Origin: Sphingomonas insulae | GTDB taxonomy: Bacteria > Pseudomonadota > Alphaproteobacteria > Sphingomonadales > Sphingomonadaceae | DNA length: 64,000 nt | Assembly (NCBI RefSeq): GCF_010450875.1 | Contig: NZ_CP048422.1 | Coordinates: 2,515,001-2,579,000, forward strand | Direction of reading: 5' to 3' | Shown here: positions 52,513 through 63,842 of the stretch, piece by piece | How positions within the stretch are numbered: the first letter of the stretch is position 1 | How the letters are laid out: each line of letters opens with the position of its first letter | Position numbers and translations under genes: made by a program | The notes under the pieces: model-generated | The model's input: only the letters and a program-made list of their open reading frames with translations | What the model was told of the DNA's origin: nothing | Databases searched by the model: none

Positions 52513-52588
<76 letters not shown>

Positions 52589-53218
52589 CCCCTCGCCATA
52601 GTGAATACAAGCATTTCGTTTGCCTTACTGAGGCAGGCGCGAACTCCGATGCGCTAGGCGGACACTAACCGTTCCGTGCTCTTCAGCAGGCTAGCGATGA
52701 CCCCGAGTTTGATATTCGCTGGTCCCGAATGAACCCCGCATCGGATAGTGGCGTTCGATCCCGACCAGCCTTCGTGCGCTCAAGGCTGGCGCGACACCGA
52801 TGTCGCCAGACATCAGTAAATGTCGGGATCGCCGTTGTTCGGTCATCGTCGGCTGGACGATCTCGTGCAGGTTGTCGCACGACTCCCCTTGCACGTTTAC
52901 GCAACACCCCTGTCCAACGGCATCAAACATCGCCAACAGGAATTAACACCACTTTATCGTCAATAGATAAACCCAATCGTCTTTCGAGTATTCAATCTAG
53001 GGGTAACAAACCCCCGCAATCTATTGATAGACGTGTAACTTGAACAAAACTCGAAATAAGTGAATCATGTTGCTTATTGCATCAGTTTTAAGTGTTGCAA
53101 TGTTATTCATACATGATTTATATTCGATAACTATCGATTTATAATCCTTCGATATTGCCGCCTTTCGGCCAAAAGAAATAGAGTCGGCGCCTATCCAACC
53201 GCAACGGGCTCGAATTTA
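52589..53218. other. Gene-poor intergenic region, AT-rich in its second half
   Basis: No credible gene between tRNA-Lys and the sugar cluster. From about 52930 the sequence turns clearly AT-rich against its GC-rich surroundings. It has a nested palindrome: TCAATAGAT (52960-52968) and ATCTATTGA (53019-53027) enclose GGGGT-aacaa-ACCCC (53000-53014). A further palindrome, TCGATA-AC-TATCGA, is at 53124-53137. These may be binding sites or a foreign boundary. Confidence 0.5.
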
Positions 53219-53232
53219 TTGATTCAAATCAA
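53219..53232. promoter_or_regulatory. FNR/FixK-type box 1
   Basis: TTGATTCAAATCAA, an exact match to the consensus TTGAT-N4-ATCAA bound by FNR, Anr and FixK regulators. It is centred 104 bp before the start codon of the first sugar-cluster gene. Confidence 0.7.
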
Positions 53233-53269
53233 CCCTCCCTCCTCCTTTTCCGCCACAAGCTAACCCACG

Positions 53270-53283
53270 TTGATCCACATCAA
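53270..53283. promoter_or_regulatory. FNR/FixK-type box 2
   Basis: TTGATCCACATCAA, a second exact TTGAT-N4-ATCAA site centred 51 bp downstream of the first and 53 bp before the TTG start at 53330. If transcription starts about 41 bases after its centre (near 53318), this would be an activator position. The transcription start itself is not visible. Confidence 0.7.
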
Positions 53284-53329
53284 TATGTCGATCAGTTAAG
53301 AAGCGGGATCAATATGTGCAGGACAAGCG

Positions 53330-55369
53330 TTGCATGATGTCAACAATGGTGGGGACCGGGTGTTCATCTTGCATCTTGCGCTTGGGGGCTGTGTCCATGC
53401 GCCACCGATAACCTTCGGCATAACCGCCGACACAGGCGGTCACATCGCCTATGTCATAGACGCTGCACTGACCCAGGCACGAAGCGCATCGGTGGATCGC
53501 GTGTCGATCGTCACGCGCTTGTTCAGCGACAGCAATCTGTCACCACGACATTCCTGGTCGAGCGAATATGTGGCCGATGGCGTCACGATCGATCGCATTG
53601 CCACCGACGACCAGCGCTATCTGGAGAAAGAGGCGCTTGCCGCTGATCTGGTCGCGTTTACCGAGGCATTCTGCGACCATATCCGTCGATTGCCGAGACA
53701 TCCCGATATCATTCACGCCCATTTCGCCGATGCAGCAGCCGTCGCCATCGAGGCGCAGCGCCGGTTCGGCATACCATTCGTCTACACCCCCCACGCGCTC
53801 GGTATCGACAAGCGTGCGCAAGGGTGTGCGGATGAGAGCGTGGATGCGCGGATCGACGCGGAACGTGCCGCCATCATTGCCGCGGACAGCATCATCGTCT
53901 CGACCCATGACGAAGCCGAACGCCAGCTGCGGGCGTATGGCGTGGCAATCGATGGCCGCATCCATTGCCTGCCCCCCGGCGTGCCGCAACGTCCGGTACC
54001 GCAGGGCGCGGCCACCTTGGCCGATCGGCTGGGCGCTTGGCTGGACCACCCGGAAAAACCCATCGTTCTCGCCATCGCAAGGCCAGTGCGCAAAAAGAAC
54101 CTAGCCGCACTGATCCGCGCTTTCATGCTGACACCGGCACTGCGAGAGCGGGCGAACCTCGTGATCCTCGCCGGGCAACACGACCGGCCCTGCTCGCGGG
54201 AGGAGCAGGACGTGTTGACGGAAATGCGGGCACTCGCTGCGACACCGGCCTTGCGAGGCTCCATCGCCCTGCCCCCCTCGCATGACGCCGACGACGTATC
54301 CGCGCTCTATGCTCTGGCCGCGAAAGGCGGCGTCTTCGTCAATCCGGCCTTGCACGAACCGTTCGGCCTGACCCTGATCGAGGCGGCCGCGATGGGCGTG
54401 CCCGTGATCGCGACGATGAACGGGGGCCCCTGCGAGATTGTCGAGACGATCGGCCACGGCCTGCTCGTCGACCCGCGCGACGAGGATGCGATCGGACGCG
54501 CCTGTCTGGCGATCGTCGGCGATCCTGCACGCCATGCACGCTTGAGCGACGCAGCGACTGCCAATGTCGGCGCCTATGACTGGAAGCGCTACGCCACCGC
54601 CAGCATCGCGGTCTATGCCTCGGTCGGTGCTGCTCAGCCGGCACTCCTGGCATGCGACATCGACAACACGTTGACCGGCTGTGCGGCCGGTGCGCGGGCG
54701 TTTGCGGAGTGGCGCGCGGGCAGTGCGCTCCCCTTCGTCATCGCGACCGGTCGATCGTTCGATGCGGCCCGTGCGGTGCTGCGGCAATGGCGACTGCCCG
54801 AACCCGATGCCTATATCGTCGATGTCGGTACGCGGCTGATGGTCGTGGACGATGCCGGACGATGGCATGCCTGCCCGGATTATGCGGCGGCGCTGGACCA
54901 TGACTGGGACCGCTCGGCTATCGCCCGTGCGCTCGCGCCGCTGGGTATCGAACGACAGCCAGCGGAAACGGACGGCCCGCACAAGCTCAGTTTCTTCGGC
55001 ACCGCAACCGATGCCGCGCACATCCGCGCGGCGTTGGAGACGACAGGACTGAAGGCGCGCGTCATCTTCTCGCACGGGCATCTGATCGACGTGATCGCGC
55101 CGATGGGGGGCAAGGCCGCCGCCATTGCCGCCTATGCCGCGCGCCACGGCCTGTCGCTGAACCAATGCGTCGCCTCCGGTGACAGCGGCAATGACGTCGA
55201 CATGCTGGAGGCATGCGGCCACGCGATCGTCGTGGCCAATGCCAGCGATGAGCTGGCGATGCTGACCCCGCGCGCCGGCTTGCATCGGGTAAGGTCCCGG
55301 CATGCGGCGGGTGTGATGGAGGGGCTGGACCTGCTCGGCCTGACGCACCGCGTCGCGGTTGCGGCATGA
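53330..55369 (+). CDS. Sucrose-phosphate synthase-like glycosyltransferase fused to HAD sucrose-phosphatase-like domain
   Basis: A 679-residue two-domain enzyme. The N-terminal GT4 part has the SPS donor/acceptor loop ADTGGHIAYVID (DTGG at 34-37), HAHFADAAAVAIEAQRRFGIPFVYTPHALGIDKR, and EPFGLTLIE with the E-x7-E pair at Glu 343/351, then ATMNGGPCEIVE. The C-terminal HAD part has CDIDNTLTG (nucleophile Asp 443, Asp 445), the Lys in GPHKLSFF and GDSGNDVDM from 617. By family it would join a hexose from a nucleotide sugar to a (fructose) phosphate and then dephosphorylate the product: sucrose or mannosylfructose-type. Start TTG 53330, AGGA six bases ahead. First gene of the coupled cluster. Confidence 0.85.
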   Translation: MHDVNNGGDRVFILHLALGGCVHAPPITFGITADTGGHIAYVIDAALTQARSASVDRVSIVTRLFSDSNLSPRHSWSSEYVADGVTIDRIATDDQRYLEKEALAADLVAFTEAFCDHIRRLPRHPDIIHAHFADAAAVAIEAQRRFGIPFVYTPHALGIDKRAQGCADESVDARIDAERAAIIAADSIIVSTHDEAERQLRAYGVAIDGRIHCLPPGVPQRPVPQGAATLADRLGAWLDHPEKPIVLAIARPVRKKNLAALIRAFMLTPALRERANLVILAGQHDRPCSREEQDVLTEMRALAATPALRGSIALPPSHDADDVSALYALAAKGGVFVNPALHEPFGLTLIEAAAMGVPVIATMNGGPCEIVETIGHGLLVDPRDEDAIGRACLAIVGDPARHARLSDAATANVGAYDWKRYATASIAVYASVGAAQPALLACDIDNTLTGCAAGARAFAEWRAGSALPFVIATGRSFDAARAVLRQWRLPEPDAYIVDVGTRLMVVDDAGRWHACPDYAAALDHDWDRSAIARALAPLGIERQPAETDGPHKLSFFGTATDAAHIRAALETTGLKARVIFSHGHLIDVIAPMGGKAAAIAAYAARHGLSLNQCVASGDSGNDVDMLEACGHAIVVANASDELAMLTPRAGLHRVRSRHAAGVMEGLDLLGLTHRVAVAA

Positions 55370-56505
55370 TGCGCCCCTTCGGCTATTTCGTTCATCATCA
55401 GGGGCGTGGCCACGCCGAACGGTGCGCCGCGATCGCCAACGCGCTGCCGGCAAGGCGTCCGCTGACGATCTTTTGCGCCCGCGACGATATCTTCCCCGCC
55501 CTGCCCGCGCATGTCGACATCGTCCGCATCCCGTCGCTGTTCGAACCCATGGGGGGCGAGCCGACGACGATGAGCGATATTGCGACGCCGGCGACGCTCC
55601 ACTGCGCGCCGCTCGGCTGGCCGGGCATTCGCCGCGCGATGGCGACGATTACGAGCTGGTTCGAAACCGCGAACCCCGCGCTGATGATCTGCGACGTCTC
55701 CGCCGAGATCGCGCAGCTCGCCCGGATATGCAGCGTGCCGCACGTCAAGGTGCTGCAGCATGGCGACCGGGGCGATCAGGGCCATCGTGCCGCCTATGAT
55801 GGCGCAGCCGGTTTGCTTGCCGCGTTCCATGCGGGTCTGGCCCAGCCGGAATGGGATACGGCGATGCTGGCGAAAACCTGTTTCGCCGGTGGCCTGGGGG
55901 TCGATACCCGCGTGCCGGAGCGCGAACTTGCCCGACAGCGCATCGGTGTCGGCGCGCGGGAGGAGATGATTCTTGTCCTGTCCGGCGGGGGTGGTGACGG
56001 CTTCGGTCAGGCGCCGCTCGGCGTCGGTGCACGGGCGCGGCCGGGCGCGCGGTGGATCACGATCGGCCCGGTGCAGCGCGATTGGCACGCGACCGAACCG
56101 GCGAATATCGAGCATCGCGGCTGGGTGGACAATGCCGCCGACCATGTCGCCGCTGCGGACCTCGTCATCGCATCGACCGGCAACACTACCTGCCAGCAGA
56201 TCCTCGCTGCCGGGAAACCCTGGCTGGCAATCCCGGAATGGCGCTATTTCGACGAACAGCACCGCAAGGCGGATGCGCTGGCCGCCGCCGGCGTCGCGTG
56301 CGTCCGCCCCCATCTTCCCTCGTCGGCCGAAGCATGGCATCACGCCCTGACCGAGACGCTCGCGACGCATCGCCCCGACGCCCAACGGGCGATGATCTCC
56401 GATACCCCCGCGGACGATGTCGCGGCGTGGCTGGAGGCGCTGTCGAAGCGCCTGTGGGCGCCCGCACCGGGCCTCATTCCCTCTCCCGATCTGACCGGAG
56501 CCTGA
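55366..56505 (+). CDS. GT-B glycosyltransferase (GT28/MurG-like)
   Basis: A 379-residue transferase-like protein. It opens with FGYFVHHQGRGHAERCAAIANAL, the GHxxR acceptor loop found in MurG/UGT-like proteins. Later come LVLSGGGGDG, AADLVIASTGNTTCQQILAAGKPWLAIPEWRYFDEQHRKADALAAAGVA, a typical UDP-sugar-binding C-domain. Start overlaps the previous stop (ATGA). Sugar and acceptor unknown; presumably adds to the product of the first gene. Confidence 0.8.
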   Translation: MMRPFGYFVHHQGRGHAERCAAIANALPARRPLTIFCARDDIFPALPAHVDIVRIPSLFEPMGGEPTTMSDIATPATLHCAPLGWPGIRRAMATITSWFETANPALMICDVSAEIAQLARICSVPHVKVLQHGDRGDQGHRAAYDGAAGLLAAFHAGLAQPEWDTAMLAKTCFAGGLGVDTRVPERELARQRIGVGAREEMILVLSGGGGDGFGQAPLGVGARARPGARWITIGPVQRDWHATEPANIEHRGWVDNAADHVAAADLVIASTGNTTCQQILAAGKPWLAIPEWRYFDEQHRKADALAAAGVACVRPHLPSSAEAWHHALTETLATHRPDAQRAMISDTPADDVAAWLEALSKRLWAPAPGLIPSPDLTGA

Positions 56506-56509
56506 CCCC

Positions 56510-57415
56510 ATGAATGCCGTTTCCGTCGTCACGCTCGCCGGGGGTCGCCCGGACCATCTTCACAATTTGGTCCTCGGCCTCGGTCGTCAGACGCAATTGC
56601 CCGTCGAACTGATCGTCGCCGTGATGCAGGACGAGGCCTATGTGCTGCCCGATGCGCCGTTTCCCGTGCGCCAGATGGCGATGGCCTCCCCCGAACTGGC
56701 GCTGGCCGCAGCGCGCAACGCGGCCGCCCGTGCGACGACGGGCGACGCGATCGTCTTCCTCGACATGGATTGCATCCCCACGCCCACGCTGATTGCCGAG
56801 TATGCGCGTCGCCTCGATGAACTCGACGGACTGCTGATGGGCGAGGTGATGTACCTCCCCGGTGGCGCAACGCAGGGCGAATGGTCGTACGATGCCTTCG
56901 CCGGGGTGGCCGTGCGCCATTCCGACCGGCAGGGTCCACCCGCCGATGGCATCCAGCGCTGCGCCGACTATCGCTGCTTCTGGTCGCTGAATTTCGCCAT
57001 GCGCCGCGCGACGTTCATCGCGAGCGGCGGCTTCGACGAACGCTATGTCGGCTATGGCGGTGAGGATACCGACTATGGCAAGACGATCGATCAGGCCGGC
57101 ATTCCGATCGCCTGGATCAGGGGCGGCCTCGCCTATCACCAATACCATCCGCACCACATGCCGCCCGTCCACCACCTCGACAGCGTGGTCCGCAATGCCG
57201 AACTGTTCGAGTCCAAATGGGGCTATCGCACCATGGGCCATTGGCTCCACGCCTTTGCGCTGATGGGGCTGGTCGATCAGGCGCCGGGCCGCCCGATCCG
57301 CATCCTGCGCCGCCCCGATGCCGACGACCTCGCGCTGACCGGTCAGCAGAGCCACCAGCCCTATGCCAATACCGCCAGCGTGATCCGCATACTCGAAGAG
57401 CGGATCGCGGCATGA
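56510..57415 (+). CDS. Glycosyltransferase family 2 protein
   Basis: A 301-residue GT-A transferase. VVTLAGGRPDHLHNLVLGLGRQ opens the Rossmann-like fold, the metal DxD is in VFLDMDCIPTP, and the acceptor-side motif is FDERYVGYGGEDTDYGKTID. A GT2_7-type C-terminal segment is visible. It begins four bases after the preceding stop, and its own stop overlaps the next start. Confidence 0.88.
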   Translation: MNAVSVVTLAGGRPDHLHNLVLGLGRQTQLPVELIVAVMQDEAYVLPDAPFPVRQMAMASPELALAAARNAAARATTGDAIVFLDMDCIPTPTLIAEYARRLDELDGLLMGEVMYLPGGATQGEWSYDAFAGVAVRHSDRQGPPADGIQRCADYRCFWSLNFAMRRATFIASGGFDERYVGYGGEDTDYGKTIDQAGIPIAWIRGGLAYHQYHPHHMPPVHHLDSVVRNAELFESKWGYRTMGHWLHAFALMGLVDQAPGRPIRILRRPDADDLALTGQQSHQPYANTASVIRILEERIAA

Positions 57416-58473
57416 GGATCGCGCTGCTGGCGCATGTCCGCCAGCGGATCGCACAACCCTTCATGGGCGGGATGGAATCGCACAGCTGGTATCTGGCCGA
57501 TGGGCTGATGGCGCGCGGGCATGACGTGGTGTTGTTCGCGGCGGGCGACAGCGACCCCCGCTTTGCGATCGATCCTGTCGTGGCCGAGCATTACGAACGC
57601 ACGTTCCCCTGGGCCGAACACCGCGGATCGGCACCGCTGATCGCCCACCTCGATGCCGGCTATGCGTCGGCGTGCGACCGGATCGCAGCCGGGGGCTTTG
57701 ACGTGGTCCATAACAACAGCCTGCATCGCTTCGCGATCGAGCCGCGCCGCACGGCGGTGGTGCCGACCGTCACGTCGCTGCACGTACCCCCCTACGACGC
57801 GCTTCACTGGTTCGTGAAGGAGAGCGCGACGCCGGGTCATCACCTGACCGTCACGTCGCAGCGGCAGATGGCCGCCTGGTGGCCGGACGGCGCGCCACGC
57901 CGGGCATCGGTATTGCACAACGGCATCGACGCGACGGCATGGCCCTTCGTCGCGAACGGTGACGGCAGCGCCGTATGGAGCGGCCGGATCACGCCCAACA
58001 AGGGCCCGCATCTGGCGATCGAGGCCGCGCGCATGGCGGGCGTGCCCTTGAAGCTGTTCGGACAGATCGAGGACCCCGATTACTGGGACGCGCGGGTCGC
58101 CCCTTTGCTGGGCGGCGACATACGATATGGCGGGCATCTGGACGGCGCGACGCTGGCGGCCGAGATGGGTCGTGCATCGGTGTTCCTGTTCACGCCATGC
58201 TGGGACGAACCGTTCGGTCTCGTCGCGGTCGAGGCGATGGCGTGCGGCCTGCCCGTCGCCGCGTTCGACATGGGTGCCGCGCGCGAGGTGATCGGCGAGG
58301 GTGGCTGCTTCGCCCCCGCGGACGATGCCGTGGCACTGGCGAAGGCGATTGGCGAGGCGATGGCGATTCCGCGCGATATCCCCCGCGAACGCGTCGAACG
58401 CCTGTTCACGCACGACCGGTGGCTGGACGCGTGCGAGGCGTTATACGCGCAGGTCCAGACCGTTTCCGCATGA
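57412..58473 (+). CDS. Glycosyltransferase family 4 protein
   Basis: A 353-residue GT-B enzyme. The N-terminal RIALLAHVRQRIAQPFMGGMESHSWYLADGLMARGHDV has the glycine-rich loop; then VLHNGID, VWSGRITPNKGPHLAIEAAR and EPFGLVAVEAMACGLPVAAF with the E-x7-E pair. The resemblance is to the WcaL/UDP-glucose:tetrahydrobiopterin-type branch, but the substrate is unknown. Coupled by ATGA on both sides. Confidence 0.9.
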   Translation: MRIALLAHVRQRIAQPFMGGMESHSWYLADGLMARGHDVVLFAAGDSDPRFAIDPVVAEHYERTFPWAEHRGSAPLIAHLDAGYASACDRIAAGGFDVVHNNSLHRFAIEPRRTAVVPTVTSLHVPPYDALHWFVKESATPGHHLTVTSQRQMAAWWPDGAPRRASVLHNGIDATAWPFVANGDGSAVWSGRITPNKGPHLAIEAARMAGVPLKLFGQIEDPDYWDARVAPLLGGDIRYGGHLDGATLAAEMGRASVFLFTPCWDEPFGLVAVEAMACGLPVAAFDMGAAREVIGEGGCFAPADDAVALAKAIGEAMAIPRDIPRERVERLFTHDRWLDACEALYAQVQTVSA

Positions 58474-59414
58474 CCGGCATGGCAGACACGATCGTCGCGC
58501 AGCGGGCGATGCTGGACAAGCTGTATCGCCGCCATGTCGGTCAGGGCCAATCGTACGCCCTGGTCGACTTTCCCGACCACGCCAATGTCGGCGACAGCGC
58601 GATCTGGCTGGGAGAGACGCGCATGCTGCGTGCGATAACGGGGCGGGCACCGGATTATGTCTCGACATGGGCGGATTTCGACGAGGCGGCGTTCCGACGC
58701 GCCAGTCCCGACGGCGTGCTGTTCCTGCATGGCGGAGGCAATATCGGCGATATTTGGGCGCATCATCAGACGTTCCGGGAATATATCCTGCGCACCGTCC
58801 GCGACCGGCCGGTCGTGCAATTGCCGCAGTCGATCCATTTCCGTGACATCGCCCGGATCGGCTCGTTCGCGGGCCTCGTTGCGGACCATCCCGATCTGCA
58901 CCTGTACGTCCGGGATCGGCAAAGCCTCGACTTAGCCGCCCGGCACCTGGCCTGCACCACCGACCTTGCGCCGGATTCGGCCTTCGCGCTGGGGCCGCAG
59001 ATACGCAATGCACCGGCAGATTGTAACGTGCTGATGCTGATGCGCACCGACGCCGAACGCCGCCCGCAAGATCGATCGGTGCTGACCAACGTGGCCGGCG
59101 CGGTGATCCTCGATTGGTTGGACGATGATGCGTTGCCCGACACCGGCGGCGATACGACGGCACAGGCATATGATCGAATGGCTGCGGCACGGGTAGAGCG
59201 TGGCCTGCGCCTGCTGTCGCGCGGGCGCAGCATCGTCACCGACCGGCTGCATGCCCATATCCTCGCGACGCTGCTCGGCATCCCGCATGTCGCGCTCGAC
59301 AATGATTACGGCAAGATATCCGCCTATATCACCTGCTGGACGGGCGATTGCGACGGTGTCCGCACCGCCGCGTCCGCGGAAGAGGTCGTCGCTGAACTCG
59401 GCTGCGTCGTATGA
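58470..59414 (+). CDS. Polysaccharide pyruvyl transferase family protein
   Basis: A 314-residue protein of the ExoV/CsaB/EpsO family, which moves pyruvate from phosphoenolpyruvate to form a ketal on a sugar. Signatures are FPDHANVGDSAIWLGE, GVLFLHGGGNIGDIWAHHQTFREYIL, PVVQLPQSIHF and the C-terminal SIVTDRLHAHILATLLGIPHVALDNDYGKIS. The pyruvylated sugar is presumably made by the neighbouring transferases. Start ATG 58470, overlapping the previous stop. Confidence 0.9.
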   Translation: MTGMADTIVAQRAMLDKLYRRHVGQGQSYALVDFPDHANVGDSAIWLGETRMLRAITGRAPDYVSTWADFDEAAFRRASPDGVLFLHGGGNIGDIWAHHQTFREYILRTVRDRPVVQLPQSIHFRDIARIGSFAGLVADHPDLHLYVRDRQSLDLAARHLACTTDLAPDSAFALGPQIRNAPADCNVLMLMRTDAERRPQDRSVLTNVAGAVILDWLDDDALPDTGGDTTAQAYDRMAAARVERGLRLLSRGRSIVTDRLHAHILATLLGIPHVALDNDYGKISAYITCWTGDCDGVRTAASAEEVVAELGCVV

Positions 59415-60304
59415 CCGACATCAGCCTGCTGGTGTGCACGCGCAACCGGTCGCCCCAACTTGCCGCGACGCTTGCCTCCATCGACCGCGCGATCCACGGC
59501 GCGCCGCATCTGAAGATCGAGGTCGTGGTCGTCGACAACGGCTCCACCGACGACACCGCCGACCGGCTGACGGCATGGAGTGCCGAACGCCCCTTCCCCG
59601 TCCACCTGGTCCATGAACCACGTCCCGGCCTCGCGCGTGCCCGCAACATCGCGATGGCGCGGGCGAGCGGCCGCATCGTCGCGATGACCGATGACGATTG
59701 CGTGCTCGACAATGGTTATTTCCGCCAGCTCGCGACCTGTTTCGCCGATGTGACGGGACCGGCGATCATCGGCGGCCGCATCCTGCTCGGCGATCCCGCG
59801 GATCTGCCCGTGACCGTGAAGCTGGAAGATCACCCGATGATCGCGCCATGGGACATGTTTCCCGGCGGGTTCGTCATGGGCGCGAACCTTGCCATGACCG
59901 CCGATGCGATTGCGCGCATAGGTCGGTTCGACGAGCGTTTCGGCGCCGGCGCACGCTTCGTGTCGGCCGAGGACACCGACTTCCTGTTCCGCGCGCTGGG
60001 GCAGAATATCCCGGTCCGTTACGATCCCCGTTTCACCGTCAACCATCACCATGGCCGGCGGTGCCCGGATGAAGTCGTTCGACTGCTCGCCGGATACAGC
60101 TATGGAGACGGAGCCCTCTATGCAAAGCATTTCTTGAGAGATCATCGCGTCGTAAAAGCCATCTACAACGACATCAGGAATTTGATGCCTGGACGCAATG
60201 AGGCCGTTACGTCATTTTCAGGCATACAAAACTTTTATCTTTTTGTTCTTCGTTTCAAGGTAAAAGGTTTTTTTTCCTATCTAAAGATGGCCGTTCCCCT
60301 CTGA
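59411..60304 (+). CDS. Glycosyltransferase family 2 protein
   Basis: A 297-residue GT-A transferase. LLVCTRNRSPQLAATLASID and VVVVDNGSTDDTADRL are the nucleotide-binding start, the DxD motif is in AMTDDDCVLDN, and FDERFGAGARFVSAEDTDFLFRALG is the acceptor region. The last 60 codons switch to AT-rich usage (YNDIRNLMPGRNEAVTSF onward, IQNFYLFVLRFKVKGFFSYLKM), unlike the rest. It is the last gene of the coupled cluster. Confidence 0.88.
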   Translation: MTDISLLVCTRNRSPQLAATLASIDRAIHGAPHLKIEVVVVDNGSTDDTADRLTAWSAERPFPVHLVHEPRPGLARARNIAMARASGRIVAMTDDDCVLDNGYFRQLATCFADVTGPAIIGGRILLGDPADLPVTVKLEDHPMIAPWDMFPGGFVMGANLAMTADAIARIGRFDERFGAGARFVSAEDTDFLFRALGQNIPVRYDPRFTVNHHHGRRCPDEVVRLLAGYSYGDGALYAKHFLRDHRVVKAIYNDIRNLMPGRNEAVTSFSGIQNFYLFVLRFKVKGFFSYLKMAVPL

Positions 60305-61061: not shown

Positions 61062-63842
61062 ATGAAGCGTGGATACTTGCTTGCGGGCATTTCATTGCCC
61101 GTGTCGATGGCGGCTTGGGCGACGGCGACCACGGCACAGACGATCCAGTCCGCGCCAAGTCAGGAAACGACCACCCAGGCGCAGACCGGACCCGATGACG
61201 ATGCCGGCAACCAGATCGTCGTCATCGGCAGCCGCGTTGCCAATCGCACGGTGTCCGACAGTCCGGTACCGATCGACGTCATTTCCGAAAGCGCGTTGCA
61301 GGCATCGGGCACGGGCGAATTGAACAAGACGCTCAACCAGCTGGTACCGTCGTTCAATTTCCCGCAGCCATCGATCGCCGACGGCTCGGATGTCACGCGC
61401 CCGGCTACGCTCCGCGGCCTCAATCCCGACCAGACGCTGGTGCTGCTCAACGGCAAGCGTCGTCATGTCTCGGCGTTGCTCAACATCAACGGTACGGTCG
61501 GACGCGGTGCCGCCGCGGTCGACATGAACATGATCCCGGCGCTTGCGATCCAGCGGATCGAGGTGCTGCGTGACGGTGCCTCTTCCCAATATGGGTCGGA
61601 CGCGATCGCCGGCGTCATCAACGTCCAGCTCAAGACCGCCTCCTCCGGCGGGCGTGCGCAGGTCAGCTACGGCAAATATGTAACGACGCTGGACGGCGTA
61701 TCCAATTTCGACGGCTTGGTTGGCGGTCAGCCCGCGCTGGACGCGACCGATTCACGCTATCTCCAGGGCAGCAGCTCGGGCGAGCGCAAGGCTCGCGACG
61801 GCGTCTACACCACGTTCGGCGTCAACGTCGGCCTGCCGGTCGGTGACGGCGGGTTCTTCAACTTCACCGGCGAATATCGCGACCGCAATTTCACCAACCG
61901 GCAGGGCTACGACCTGCGGCCCAACTACATCCGTCCGACCACGACGACGTTCGATCCGCGCGAGGCGACCTTCAACCGGCTCGACTTCCGCTACGGCGAT
62001 GCGAAGACCGAGGATTTTAACTTCCTCATCAATTCGTCCGTCCCGCTGGGAAGCGCCGAATTCTACGCTTTCGCGACCTACGGGCATCGCGACGGACTGT
62101 CGGCGGCCAATTTCCGCCAGCAATCGGCCGCGACCAACCGGGACTTTTCGGTGCTGCAACCCAGCACGGCCCCGACCACCGGCAATTTCGTCGGGCTGAC
62201 GCCGGACGGTTACCTGCCCAAGATCCAGTCGAACATCGACGACATGTCGGTGACCAGCGGCCTCCGCGCGGACCTCGCCGGCTTCAAGGGCGACTTTTCG
62301 CTCGGCTTCGGTCGCAACGAACTGAACTATCGGACCGAGGACAGCGTCAACGTATCGTTCGGGCCGCAAAGCCAGCGCTCGTTCGACGCCGGCGGCCTCG
62401 CCTTTTCCCAGATCCTCGCCAATGCCGACCTGTCGCGCCAATTCGACGCGGGTCTCGCCGGCCCGCTGTCGTTCGCGTTCGGCGGCGAATACCGCCACGA
62501 AATCTACCAGATCCGCCCCGGCGATCCCCAATCGTACCAGACGGGACCGTTCTTCGTCGCCGCCCGCACGACGCCCGAGGCGAATTGCAGGGCGCTCGGC
62601 GGGCTGCCCGGCACCAACAATGCCTGCACCTTCCCCGGACGTGCCGCAGCGGCGGGCGCGCAGGGGTTCGGCGGCCTGCCCGCCTCCGCACGCACCAACG
62701 TCGACCGCGACAGCTTTGCAGGCTATGTCGAATTCGACGCCGACCTGTTCACCGGCCTGACCGCAACGGCCGCCGGCCGCTACGAACATTACAGCGATTT
62801 CGGCGATACCGTGAACGGCAAGCTCGCGTTGCGGTATGAATTCGTCCAGGGCTTCGCGATCCGCGGATCGGTGTCCAACGGTTTCCGGGCGCCATCGCTG
62901 CACCAGCAATATTTCACCACCACCTCCACCAACTTCCTCGCCGGCGTGCCGGTGGACGTCTCGACGGTGCCGGTCAGCAGCCCGGTTGCGCGCGCGCTCG
63001 GTTCCCAGCCGCTCGATCCCGAAAAGTCGCTCAACCTGTCGGGCGGCGCCACGCTCAATCCGTTCCGTGGTTTCAACGTCACGGTCGATTACTTCCACAT
63101 CAAGATCAAGGATCGCATCGTGCTGTCCGAAAATCTCGGCGCGGCCGGGGTCGGAACCGCAGCGCAGAACAGCGCAGTGCAGGCGGTGCTGGCGGCGAAC
63201 GGCTTCAGCAACGTCGGTGCCGCGCGCTTCTTCATCAACGGCCTGGACACGACGACCCAGGGCGTCGACGCGGTGGCGACCTATCGCGCCAATCTCGGCG
63301 GCCTTGGCGCATGGAATTTCTCGGCAGCCTATAATTACACGCAGAACCAGATCGACAAGCGGCTGAACAATCTCGGCTCGCTGGCGCAGATCCCGGGCCT
63401 GGTCCTGTTCGGCCGGGTCGAAGGCATCCGCTTCGAACGCGGCCAGCCGCGCACCAAGGTCGTACTGGCGACCGACGGCAAGATCGCCGGCGTCGGCGTG
63501 TCGGCGCGCACGACCCGCTATGGCTCGGTCATCTCACCGGAAACGACCGCGCCGCTCGGTGCCGATGCGACGAGCCTCACCGCGCTGGGGCCGGACGATC
63601 AGGTCCTGCGGCCGAAGTGGATCACCGATTTCTCGCTCAGCTATGAATTGCAGGGCGTGCAACTGACGCTGGGGGTCGACAATGCGTTCGACGTCTATCC
63701 CGATCGTCGTCCGTTCGGCCTGCGCCCATCGAGCGTCGGCGGCAGCTATCCCGCGACGTATCAATTCCTGCCGTACAGCGGCTTTTCGCCGTTCGGCTTC
63801 AACGGCCGCTTCCTGTACGCGCGGGCGGCGATCAATTTCTGA
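61062..63842 (+). CDS. TonB-dependent receptor
   Basis: A 926-residue outer-membrane receptor. A signal peptide (MKRGYLLAGISLPVSMAAWATATTAQ) is followed by a TonB-box-like QIVVIGSRVANRT (about 47-60). The plug has RGLNPDQTLVLLNGKRRH and RIEVLRDGASSQYGSDAIAGVINV, then a long barrel closing with the aromatic end ARAAINF. The ligand is unknown. The GntR remnant upstream suggests it once had its own regulator, typical of carbohydrate-responsive receptors in sphingomonads. Confidence 0.93.
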   Translation: MKRGYLLAGISLPVSMAAWATATTAQTIQSAPSQETTTQAQTGPDDDAGNQIVVIGSRVANRTVSDSPVPIDVISESALQASGTGELNKTLNQLVPSFNFPQPSIADGSDVTRPATLRGLNPDQTLVLLNGKRRHVSALLNINGTVGRGAAAVDMNMIPALAIQRIEVLRDGASSQYGSDAIAGVINVQLKTASSGGRAQVSYGKYVTTLDGVSNFDGLVGGQPALDATDSRYLQGSSSGERKARDGVYTTFGVNVGLPVGDGGFFNFTGEYRDRNFTNRQGYDLRPNYIRPTTTTFDPREATFNRLDFRYGDAKTEDFNFLINSSVPLGSAEFYAFATYGHRDGLSAANFRQQSAATNRDFSVLQPSTAPTTGNFVGLTPDGYLPKIQSNIDDMSVTSGLRADLAGFKGDFSLGFGRNELNYRTEDSVNVSFGPQSQRSFDAGGLAFSQILANADLSRQFDAGLAGPLSFAFGGEYRHEIYQIRPGDPQSYQTGPFFVAARTTPEANCRALGGLPGTNNACTFPGRAAAAGAQGFGGLPASARTNVDRDSFAGYVEFDADLFTGLTATAAGRYEHYSDFGDTVNGKLALRYEFVQGFAIRGSVSNGFRAPSLHQQYFTTTSTNFLAGVPVDVSTVPVSSPVARALGSQPLDPEKSLNLSGGATLNPFRGFNVTVDYFHIKIKDRIVLSENLGAAGVGTAAQNSAVQAVLAANGFSNVGAARFFINGLDTTTQGVDAVATYRANLGGLGAWNFSAAYNYTQNQIDKRLNNLGSLAQIPGLVLFGRVEGIRFERGQPRTKVVLATDGKIAGVGVSARTTRYGSVISPETTAPLGADATSLTALGPDDQVLRPKWITDFSLSYELQGVQLTLGVDNAFDVYPDRRPFGLRPSSVGGSYPATYQFLPYSGFSPFGFNGRFLYARAAINF

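Follow-up and report, generated by a model that had tools for sequence, protein, structure and literature searches.

In this study we describe a compact cluster of six genes, g1 to g6 (positions 53330-60304), in a 64,000-nucleotide stretch of the Sphingomonas insulae genome (contig NZ_CP048422.1, positions 2,515,001 to 2,579,000; hereafter the window). The first gene encodes a sucrose-phosphate synthase (SPS)-like enzyme fused to a phosphatase, and a pyruvyltransferase is among the genes that follow. We lean, if only slightly, towards the view that this operon makes a small cytosolic acidic oligosaccharide, a stress protectant of the compatible-solute type. The cluster consists of a four-gene core (g1-g4), found across Alphaproteobacteria, and a two-gene tail (g5-g6). 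A preliminary description of the window had treated the six genes as one unit; the grouping stood, and the division into core and tail and the link to a stress regulon were missed there. The observation holds and is of more interest than first described: the core is conserved, its proposed acidic caps alternate between lineages, and in a relative the genes are tied to the stress response.

Organization of the gene cluster

All six open reading frames (ORFs) are intact and lie on the forward strand of the window. Gene g1 (53360..55369, GTG start, 669 aa) encodes the fusion of an SPS-like GT4 glycosyltransferase with a sucrose-phosphatase-type HAD domain, g2 (55366..56505, 379 aa) a GT28-like (GT-B) glycosyltransferase, g3 (56510..57415, 301 aa) a GT2 "galactosyltransferase-related" protein with a Glyco_transf_7C part, and g4 (57412..58473, 353 aa) a GT4 glycosyltransferase. 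They are followed by g5 (58470..59414), encoding a Pvg1p-like polysaccharide pyruvyl transferase, and g6 (59411..60304), encoding a GT2 glycosyltransferase, the second gene of a Sphingomonas-type tail. These families, already named in the preliminary description, were confirmed by the Pfam/NCBIfam scan. The genes are joined by four 4-nt overlaps and one 4-nt gap: an ATGA overlap at the g1/g2 junction (55366-55369), the gap between g2 and g3 (56506-56509), and overlaps starting at 57412 (g3/g4), 58470 (g4/g5) and 59411 (g5/g6). The start of g1 had been placed at 53330, a TTG codon; the GTG at 53360 is probably the correct one, because the database entry identical to the g1 protein has 669 aa and fits that start.

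The dN/dS against the nearest relative was 0.05-0.15 for all six genes, which together with the conserved gene order rules out chance ORFs; a decaying cluster is ruled out by the intactness of all six genes. No other genes were recognized within 53330-60304. Inspection of the ORFs and the family scan found no initiating transferase, flippase, polymerase, exporter or nucleotide-sugar gene within these bounds, which upholds the earlier statement that the cluster has no lipid-carrier or export gene. The interval therefore lacks the marks of a Wzx/Wzy- or ABC-dependent locus, ABC exporters having been sought here and not genome-wide. A 19-residue hydropathy scan gave no convincing membrane segment in g1-g6; the highest values (1.66 in g1 and 1.67 in g4) both fall in the conserved GT-B stretch around E-P-F-G-L, and the other proteins reach at most 1.33.

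A conserved core with probable lineage-specific acidic caps

To describe the distribution of the cluster, an even sample of 201 genomes of the genus, that of S. insulae included, was taken from a larger group. Of these, 75 contained the fusion (E <= 1e-60) and 54 the pyruvyltransferase (E <= 1e-20), and g2 was found in 85 at E <= 1e-30 and in 75 at E <= 1e-50. At the stricter g2 threshold, the fusion and g2 occurred together in 74 genomes and apart in two, one each way (G392, where a fragment lies at the edge of a contig, and G421); ten fusion-less genomes with weaker g2 relatives (E 9e-46 to 5e-41, 37-47% identical) were dropped from this count. Class-wide, the fusion and g2 were present in the same 3 of 289 genomes, and the system is therefore rare outside some lineages. 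In a set of 53 loci (L003-L055), partly from the same genomes as the survey and with flanks of at most 1.5 kb, g2 lay beside the fusion in 51 and g3 in 51, with one or the other in 53/53. This result rules out that the cluster is simply a sucrose operon.

All six genes stand in the same order in 14 named loci (L086-L093, L095-L098, L105 and L193). A search for this gene order in other genomes had been proposed as a check, and the conservation found does not refute the reading. The clade of the window (clade A) was taken as the 34 genomes whose fusion has at least 61% identity; in 28 of these, the pyruvyltransferase follows on the same contig at 3.1-3.4 kb from the fusion. Among the six exceptions, G362 has the pyruvyltransferase on another contig, the contig ends early in G365 and G282, and G395, G285 and G324 have no pyruvyltransferase after g4.

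The core g1-g4 without g5-g6 was found in Novosphingobium fluoreni, Loktanella, Roseomonas, Paracoccus marcusii, Sulfitobacter, Croceicoccus, Erythrobacter, Aurantiacibacter and N. indicum; some of these loci have g4 in inverted orientation or at another position. Rearranged sets occur in Notoacmeibacter and Methylobacterium bullatum, and Paracoccus yeei shows only g1 and g4. In addition, 28 plasmid records carry a single region covering at least 80% of g1, and eight such regions were examined. The M. bullatum plasmid locus (L192, 7900-15089) is a mosaic, in which a divergent core (g1 43%, g2 41%, g3 42% and g4 30% identical) precedes another g3-g4 pair, with 76% and 73% identity to those of the window.

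Over 38 loci, in which the flanks vary in length and some contigs end early, the pyruvyltransferase was found near the core in 15/22 clade-A loci and 0/16 others, and a sulfotransferase of one family in 9/16 loci outside clade A and 0/22 inside. When these labels were mapped on a quick g1 tree (42 rows, four with long branches), both were clustered: the pyruvyl label required 6 changes against 13.1 when shuffled, and the sulfo label 4 against 8.2. All 16 pyruvyl rows fall in one clade of 23 with a support of 100, seven members of which do not carry the pyruvyl label. These distributions suggest that pyruvyl and sulfo groups are two alternative acidic caps, either of which would make the product negatively charged.

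Candidate functions of the encoded enzymes

The g1 protein carries the Pfam domains S6PP and Glycos_transf_1, and the models that fit it best are those of SPS (TIGR02472, 316 bits; S6PP, 160 bits), with the HAD half scoring 160.5 bits against PF05116 (cut-off 20.3). An alignment was built of 105 rows: the window and the 104 loci, out of 114, that were left after filtering by length and motif. The positions equivalent to H158, E331, R178 and R249 of TeSPS (H145, E333, R164 and R241 in g1) were invariant in 105/105 rows, as were D433, D435, K542, D608, N611 and D612 of the HAD half, whose roles we assume; the filters required the E-x-F-G and D-x-D-x-T motifs, so invariance there is partly by selection. 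The position of TeSPS R105 is Lys90 in g1. Given that the catalytic His and Glu of TeSPS, its two Arg residues and the HAD residues are invariant, both halves of g1 look active, in line with the earlier statement that both catalytic sets are intact. SPS-SPP-like fusions of Flavobacterium (L107-L133, L135, L136, L144 and L153) are about 28-30% identical and keep an acceptor-loop GGQ, which we equate, from the motif, with Gln51 of TeSPS; the flanks fetched for them held no g2-g4 match.

The g2 protein is a weak GT28 match (Glyco_tran_28_C, 29 bits against a 22-bit cut-off), and its S. paucimobilis orthologue scores just under the cut-off. The predicted structures of g2 and g3 have a mean pLDDT of 89.7 and 94.3, respectively. 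In one locus (L033:3528-4555, genome G264), g2 was matched in two pieces, perhaps owing to a frameshift or an assembly error. Several g3 relatives are annotated "galactosyltransferase-related" in their source records, and g3 plausibly adds galactose, which would fit galactose as the pyruvate acceptor. The best PDB matches of g4 are 8x3q and 7fg9 (E ~4e-32). The latter is TeGSS, which, as the available text of its description reports, extends sucrose and is encoded beside SPS (PMC9909042). Its UDP-side residues Arg179, Lys184 and Glu256 are kept at the aligned positions of g4, with an inferred numbering offset of 3.

The g5 protein scores 93.6 bits against PS_pyruv_trans (PF04230; cut-off 25.3), and its sole PDB match at E <= 1 is Pvg1p of S. 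pombe (5ax7, E 4.9e-42). According to the accessible part of its description, Pvg1p pyruvylates galactose (PMC4872226). The phosphoenolpyruvate (PEP)-site residues, taken as named in the available parts of the Pvg1p and CsaB papers, correspond to R148, R259, H261 and K282 of g5 and are present in 44/44 distinct orthologues. Thus, the family score and the PEP site both agree with the acidic end group that had been proposed for the product.

Link to the EcfG general stress response in a relative

In the part available of a study of S. melonis Fr1, the top 50 EcfG-regulated genes under low stress include #3506-#3509, three glycosyltransferases and an "Exopolysaccharide biosynthesis protein" (#3509), with log2 values of -3.3, -3.4, -3.7 and -4.3 and each marked as overlapping the preceding gene (PMC6599016). 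The upstream region of #3505 was assayed there with a reporter as a putative indirect target, and its EcfG dependence was validated (PMC6599016). In the same available part, #3505-#3509 are reported as regulated genes, and no product or pathway is proposed for them (PMC6599016).

Orthology was assessed with the 24-25-base strings printed in the table of that study and their distances to each start (PMC6599016, the table being the part used). In genome G391 (L032, L083), each of the four printed strings was found with 1-3 mismatches. The start codons of the g2, g3, g4 and g5 orthologues in this genome fall at distances of 92, 51, 400 and 171, exactly as printed. When seven loci were scanned with these strings, 9/11 placements were exact and two were one codon off; ten control strings from the table had no match in these loci. 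Therefore, #3506-#3509 are the orthologues of g2-g5, and the preceding #3505 is that of g1. The g6 orthologue is absent from the printed top-50 table (PMC6599016).

We then scanned the 130 nt upstream of g1 for a strict EcfG-type motif, GGAAC-N15-18-[CTG]GTT. Outside clade A, the motif was found in 11/38 alphaproteobacterial g1 upstreams, with 0.27 expected by shuffling (at most 3 over 300 shuffles), and on the reverse strand in 7/38, some of which have a divergent gene. Among 664 control ORF upstreams, g1s included, 22 carried it.

Surroundings of the cluster

Upstream of the cluster in the window lie a RodA-family gene, a tRNA-Lys(CTT) gene (52513..52588, forward strand) and then a stretch that is AT-richer than its surroundings (52589..53359), in which no regulatory RNA matched Rfam at gathering score. 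A TonB receptor gene lies downstream at 61062. The same RodA gene-tRNA-Lys-cluster arrangement occurs in Novosphingobium fluoreni (tRNA at L094:8256-8331), the two g1 proteins being only about 61% identical despite the common tRNA position, and the tRNA-Lys is possibly a repeated insertion site. In the nearest relative (G276), no tRNA was found in its 20-kb stretch, and no claim of an island at a tRNA is drawn.

When neighbour families were compared over 27 stretches, those other than g1-g6 each occurred in at most 9/27. The families identified were glycosidases, patatin, a dehydrogenase, FecR, YdjC, a TonB receptor, a Crp-type regulator and the sulfotransferase. A Crp/Fnr-type regulator stands near the core in seven loci (L099-L104 and L196), and nine named S. 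paucimobilis-like loci (e.g. L086:213-7838) carry GH3, GH125, GH92 and alpha-L-fucosidase genes ahead of the cluster.

Discussion

In the pathway that we infer, from its substrates, linkages and step order to its soluble product, protective role and regulation in S. insulae, g1 would use a nucleotide sugar to place a hexose (glucose or mannose) on a sugar phosphate, which is most likely fructose-6-phosphate. The HAD domain would take off the phosphate to leave a free non-reducing disaccharide of the sucrose or mannosylfructose type. Genes g2, g3 and g4 would then add one sugar each, galactose plausibly being added by g3, with g4 akin to the cyanobacterial enzyme that extends sucrose. In the clade of the window, g5 would put a pyruvate ketal on a hexose, plausibly galactose, and g6 would add a further sugar; in other lineages, a sulfotransferase would act in place of the pyruvyl cap. 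The operon would be expressed as part of the EcfG general stress response. A role of the product as a signal, also raised in the preliminary description, found no supporting evidence.

Parts of this scheme have known counterparts. In Agrobacterium, an SPS-like synthase and a phosphatase (MfpsA/MfppB) yield a free disaccharide osmolyte, mannosylfructose, as proposed for g1; unlike the cluster, they are described as two separate proteins with no further transferases. Cyanobacterial bidomain SPS-SPP fusions are described with the same domain order as g1, whereas g1 scores under the TIGR02472/TIGR02471 cut-offs. The cyanobacterial SPS and glucosylsucrose synthase of T. elongatus (tll1590/tll1591) likewise place an SPS-type enzyme beside a disaccharide-extending GT4 and, in the available text, have a stress-linked product (PMC9909042); here, however, four further glycosyltransferases stand instead of one, the phosphatase is fused to the SPS, and an acidic cap is added. 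Pvg1p shares the PEP-site residues of g5 and, as far as the accessible text goes, acts on Golgi glycoprotein sugars (PMC4872226), galactose being a plausible acceptor of g5. A further counterpart is S. melonis Fr1 #3505-#3509, orthologues of g1-g5 in the same order (PMC6599016, from its available part).

A number of observations weigh against a stress-protective oligosaccharide built on a sucrose-type disaccharide. The g1 protein falls under both SPS equivalog cut-offs (316 against 576 bits for TIGR02472 and 126.8 against 209.75 for TIGR02471), and its acceptor loop reads GGH in place of GGQ. Over the 105 rows, this position is His in 72, Gln in 32 and a gap in one; all 72 alphaproteobacterial rows that are not gapped here read GGH, and the 32 rows with Gln come from Flavobacterium and other distant records. 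Because of the missed cut-offs and the GGH, sucrose as the g1 product is not assured; of the earlier proposal for g1, the type of enzyme, one making a free disaccharide, was supported, and sucrose is less certain. The acceptor could be inositol phosphate or a sugar phosphate other than fructose-6-phosphate, giving a glycosyl-polyol or another disaccharide that is extended likewise. Besides the change from Gln to His, the relatedness of g1 to MshA (131 bits) points this way, and so does a second type of locus. Other Sphingomonas have g3-g6 orthologues without g1-g2 (L166-L170, L172 and L173, g4 not being found in L167), with identities of 76-79% for g3, 75-77% for g4, 59-65% for g5 and 58-67% for g6, which also goes against the proposal. 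In G271 (L178:10008-17001 with L168:468-8596), they follow a different front end of myo-inositol-phosphate synthase, a methyltransferase, one unassigned ORF, YcaO, a xylose-isomerase-like TIM barrel, an MshA/BshA-like GT4 and a PIG-L deacetylase. The full set is found only in G271 and parts of it in four more (L166, L169, L170 and L173). The set has the appearance of a mycothiol-like scaffold to which the same glycan tail is joined, and the tail can therefore serve another scaffold. We nevertheless consider a different g1 acceptor rather improbable, given that the SPS models score best for g1 and that the other SPS residues tested are kept. For g4, the aligned positions of the sucrose-side Trp10 and Tyr18 of TeGSS are Arg and Met, and tetrahydrobiopterin glucosyltransferases match it nearly as well (E 8e-31 and 2e-29); judged by sequence, it is therefore a relative of glucosylsucrose synthase and not a proven one.

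On the side of regulation, the strict motif was found in 0/39 clade-A sequences within 130 nt, and no EcfG-type motif lies in the 400 nt before the g1 of the window. A relaxed motif gave a weak signal in clade A (5/39 against 0.96 expected, maximum 6), and the 400-nt scan found the motif in 4/52 clade-A loci; two of these matches extend into the start codon, and the other two come from one genome, at -284. The absence of the motif in clade A agrees with #3505 being called an indirect target in the available part of the S. melonis study (PMC6599016), and EcfG regulation is probably direct in part of the relatives and indirect in S. melonis.

Sets of GT2, GT4 and pyruvyltransferase genes are usual in exopolysaccharide (EPS) loci, and the operon might make or decorate an EPS or capsule unit whose initiating enzyme, flippase and polymerase are encoded elsewhere. 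The 3.74-Mb genome indeed has three Bac_transf, four Polysacc_synt flippase-type (over the cut-off) and two Wzy_C proteins, as well as 16 Glycos_transf_1 matches besides g1 and g4. Opposite-strand transporter genes lie near single loci, of the AI-2E family in L190, MFS in L193 and MATE in L196, the last of these near the core, and the label of #3509 in the available S. melonis table names exopolysaccharide biosynthesis (PMC6599016). We hold this to be unlikely: the nearest match to such machinery is ~370 kb off on the same contig, with none near the cluster. The components of a polysaccharide locus with its polymerase and exporter elsewhere, considered as a refutation in the preliminary description, may be present in the genome. 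Moreover, no exporter recurred among the neighbour families scanned in the 27 stretches (besides these, the stretches shared one small family and one resembling sigma factors), a phosphatase-fused SPS-like first enzyme fits poorly with a lipid-linked start, and the core stands in differing surroundings and on plasmids. Sphingomonads also carry tetrasaccharide glycosphingolipids, and S. paucimobilis has the cluster (L086); that the glycosyltransferases build the head group of such a lipid is nonetheless very improbable, considering that the fusion is present in only 75/201 genomes of the genus and that the core also occurs in Loktanella, Paracoccus, Sulfitobacter and Roseomonas, which to our knowledge are not glycosphingolipid makers.

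Beyond the acidic oligosaccharide proposed for S. insulae, one may tentatively, and with considerable doubt, imagine a modular alphaproteobacterial family of stress-induced acidic oligosaccharides with a core of about five sugars, built by the fused SPS-like enzyme and three transferases and capped by pyruvate or sulfate according to lineage, and with g3-g6 also working on an inositol/YcaO-type scaffold. We know of no other class of sugar osmolytes with exchangeable anionic caps, and a full-text search, with most subscription papers outside its reach, found no published description of the pathway. If the proposal is true, Sphingomonas and its relatives would, as part of the general stress response, produce a charged protective sugar that has gone unrecognised. 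This would also explain the strongly EcfG-dependent operon that stands without a named product in the available part of the S. melonis study (PMC6599016).

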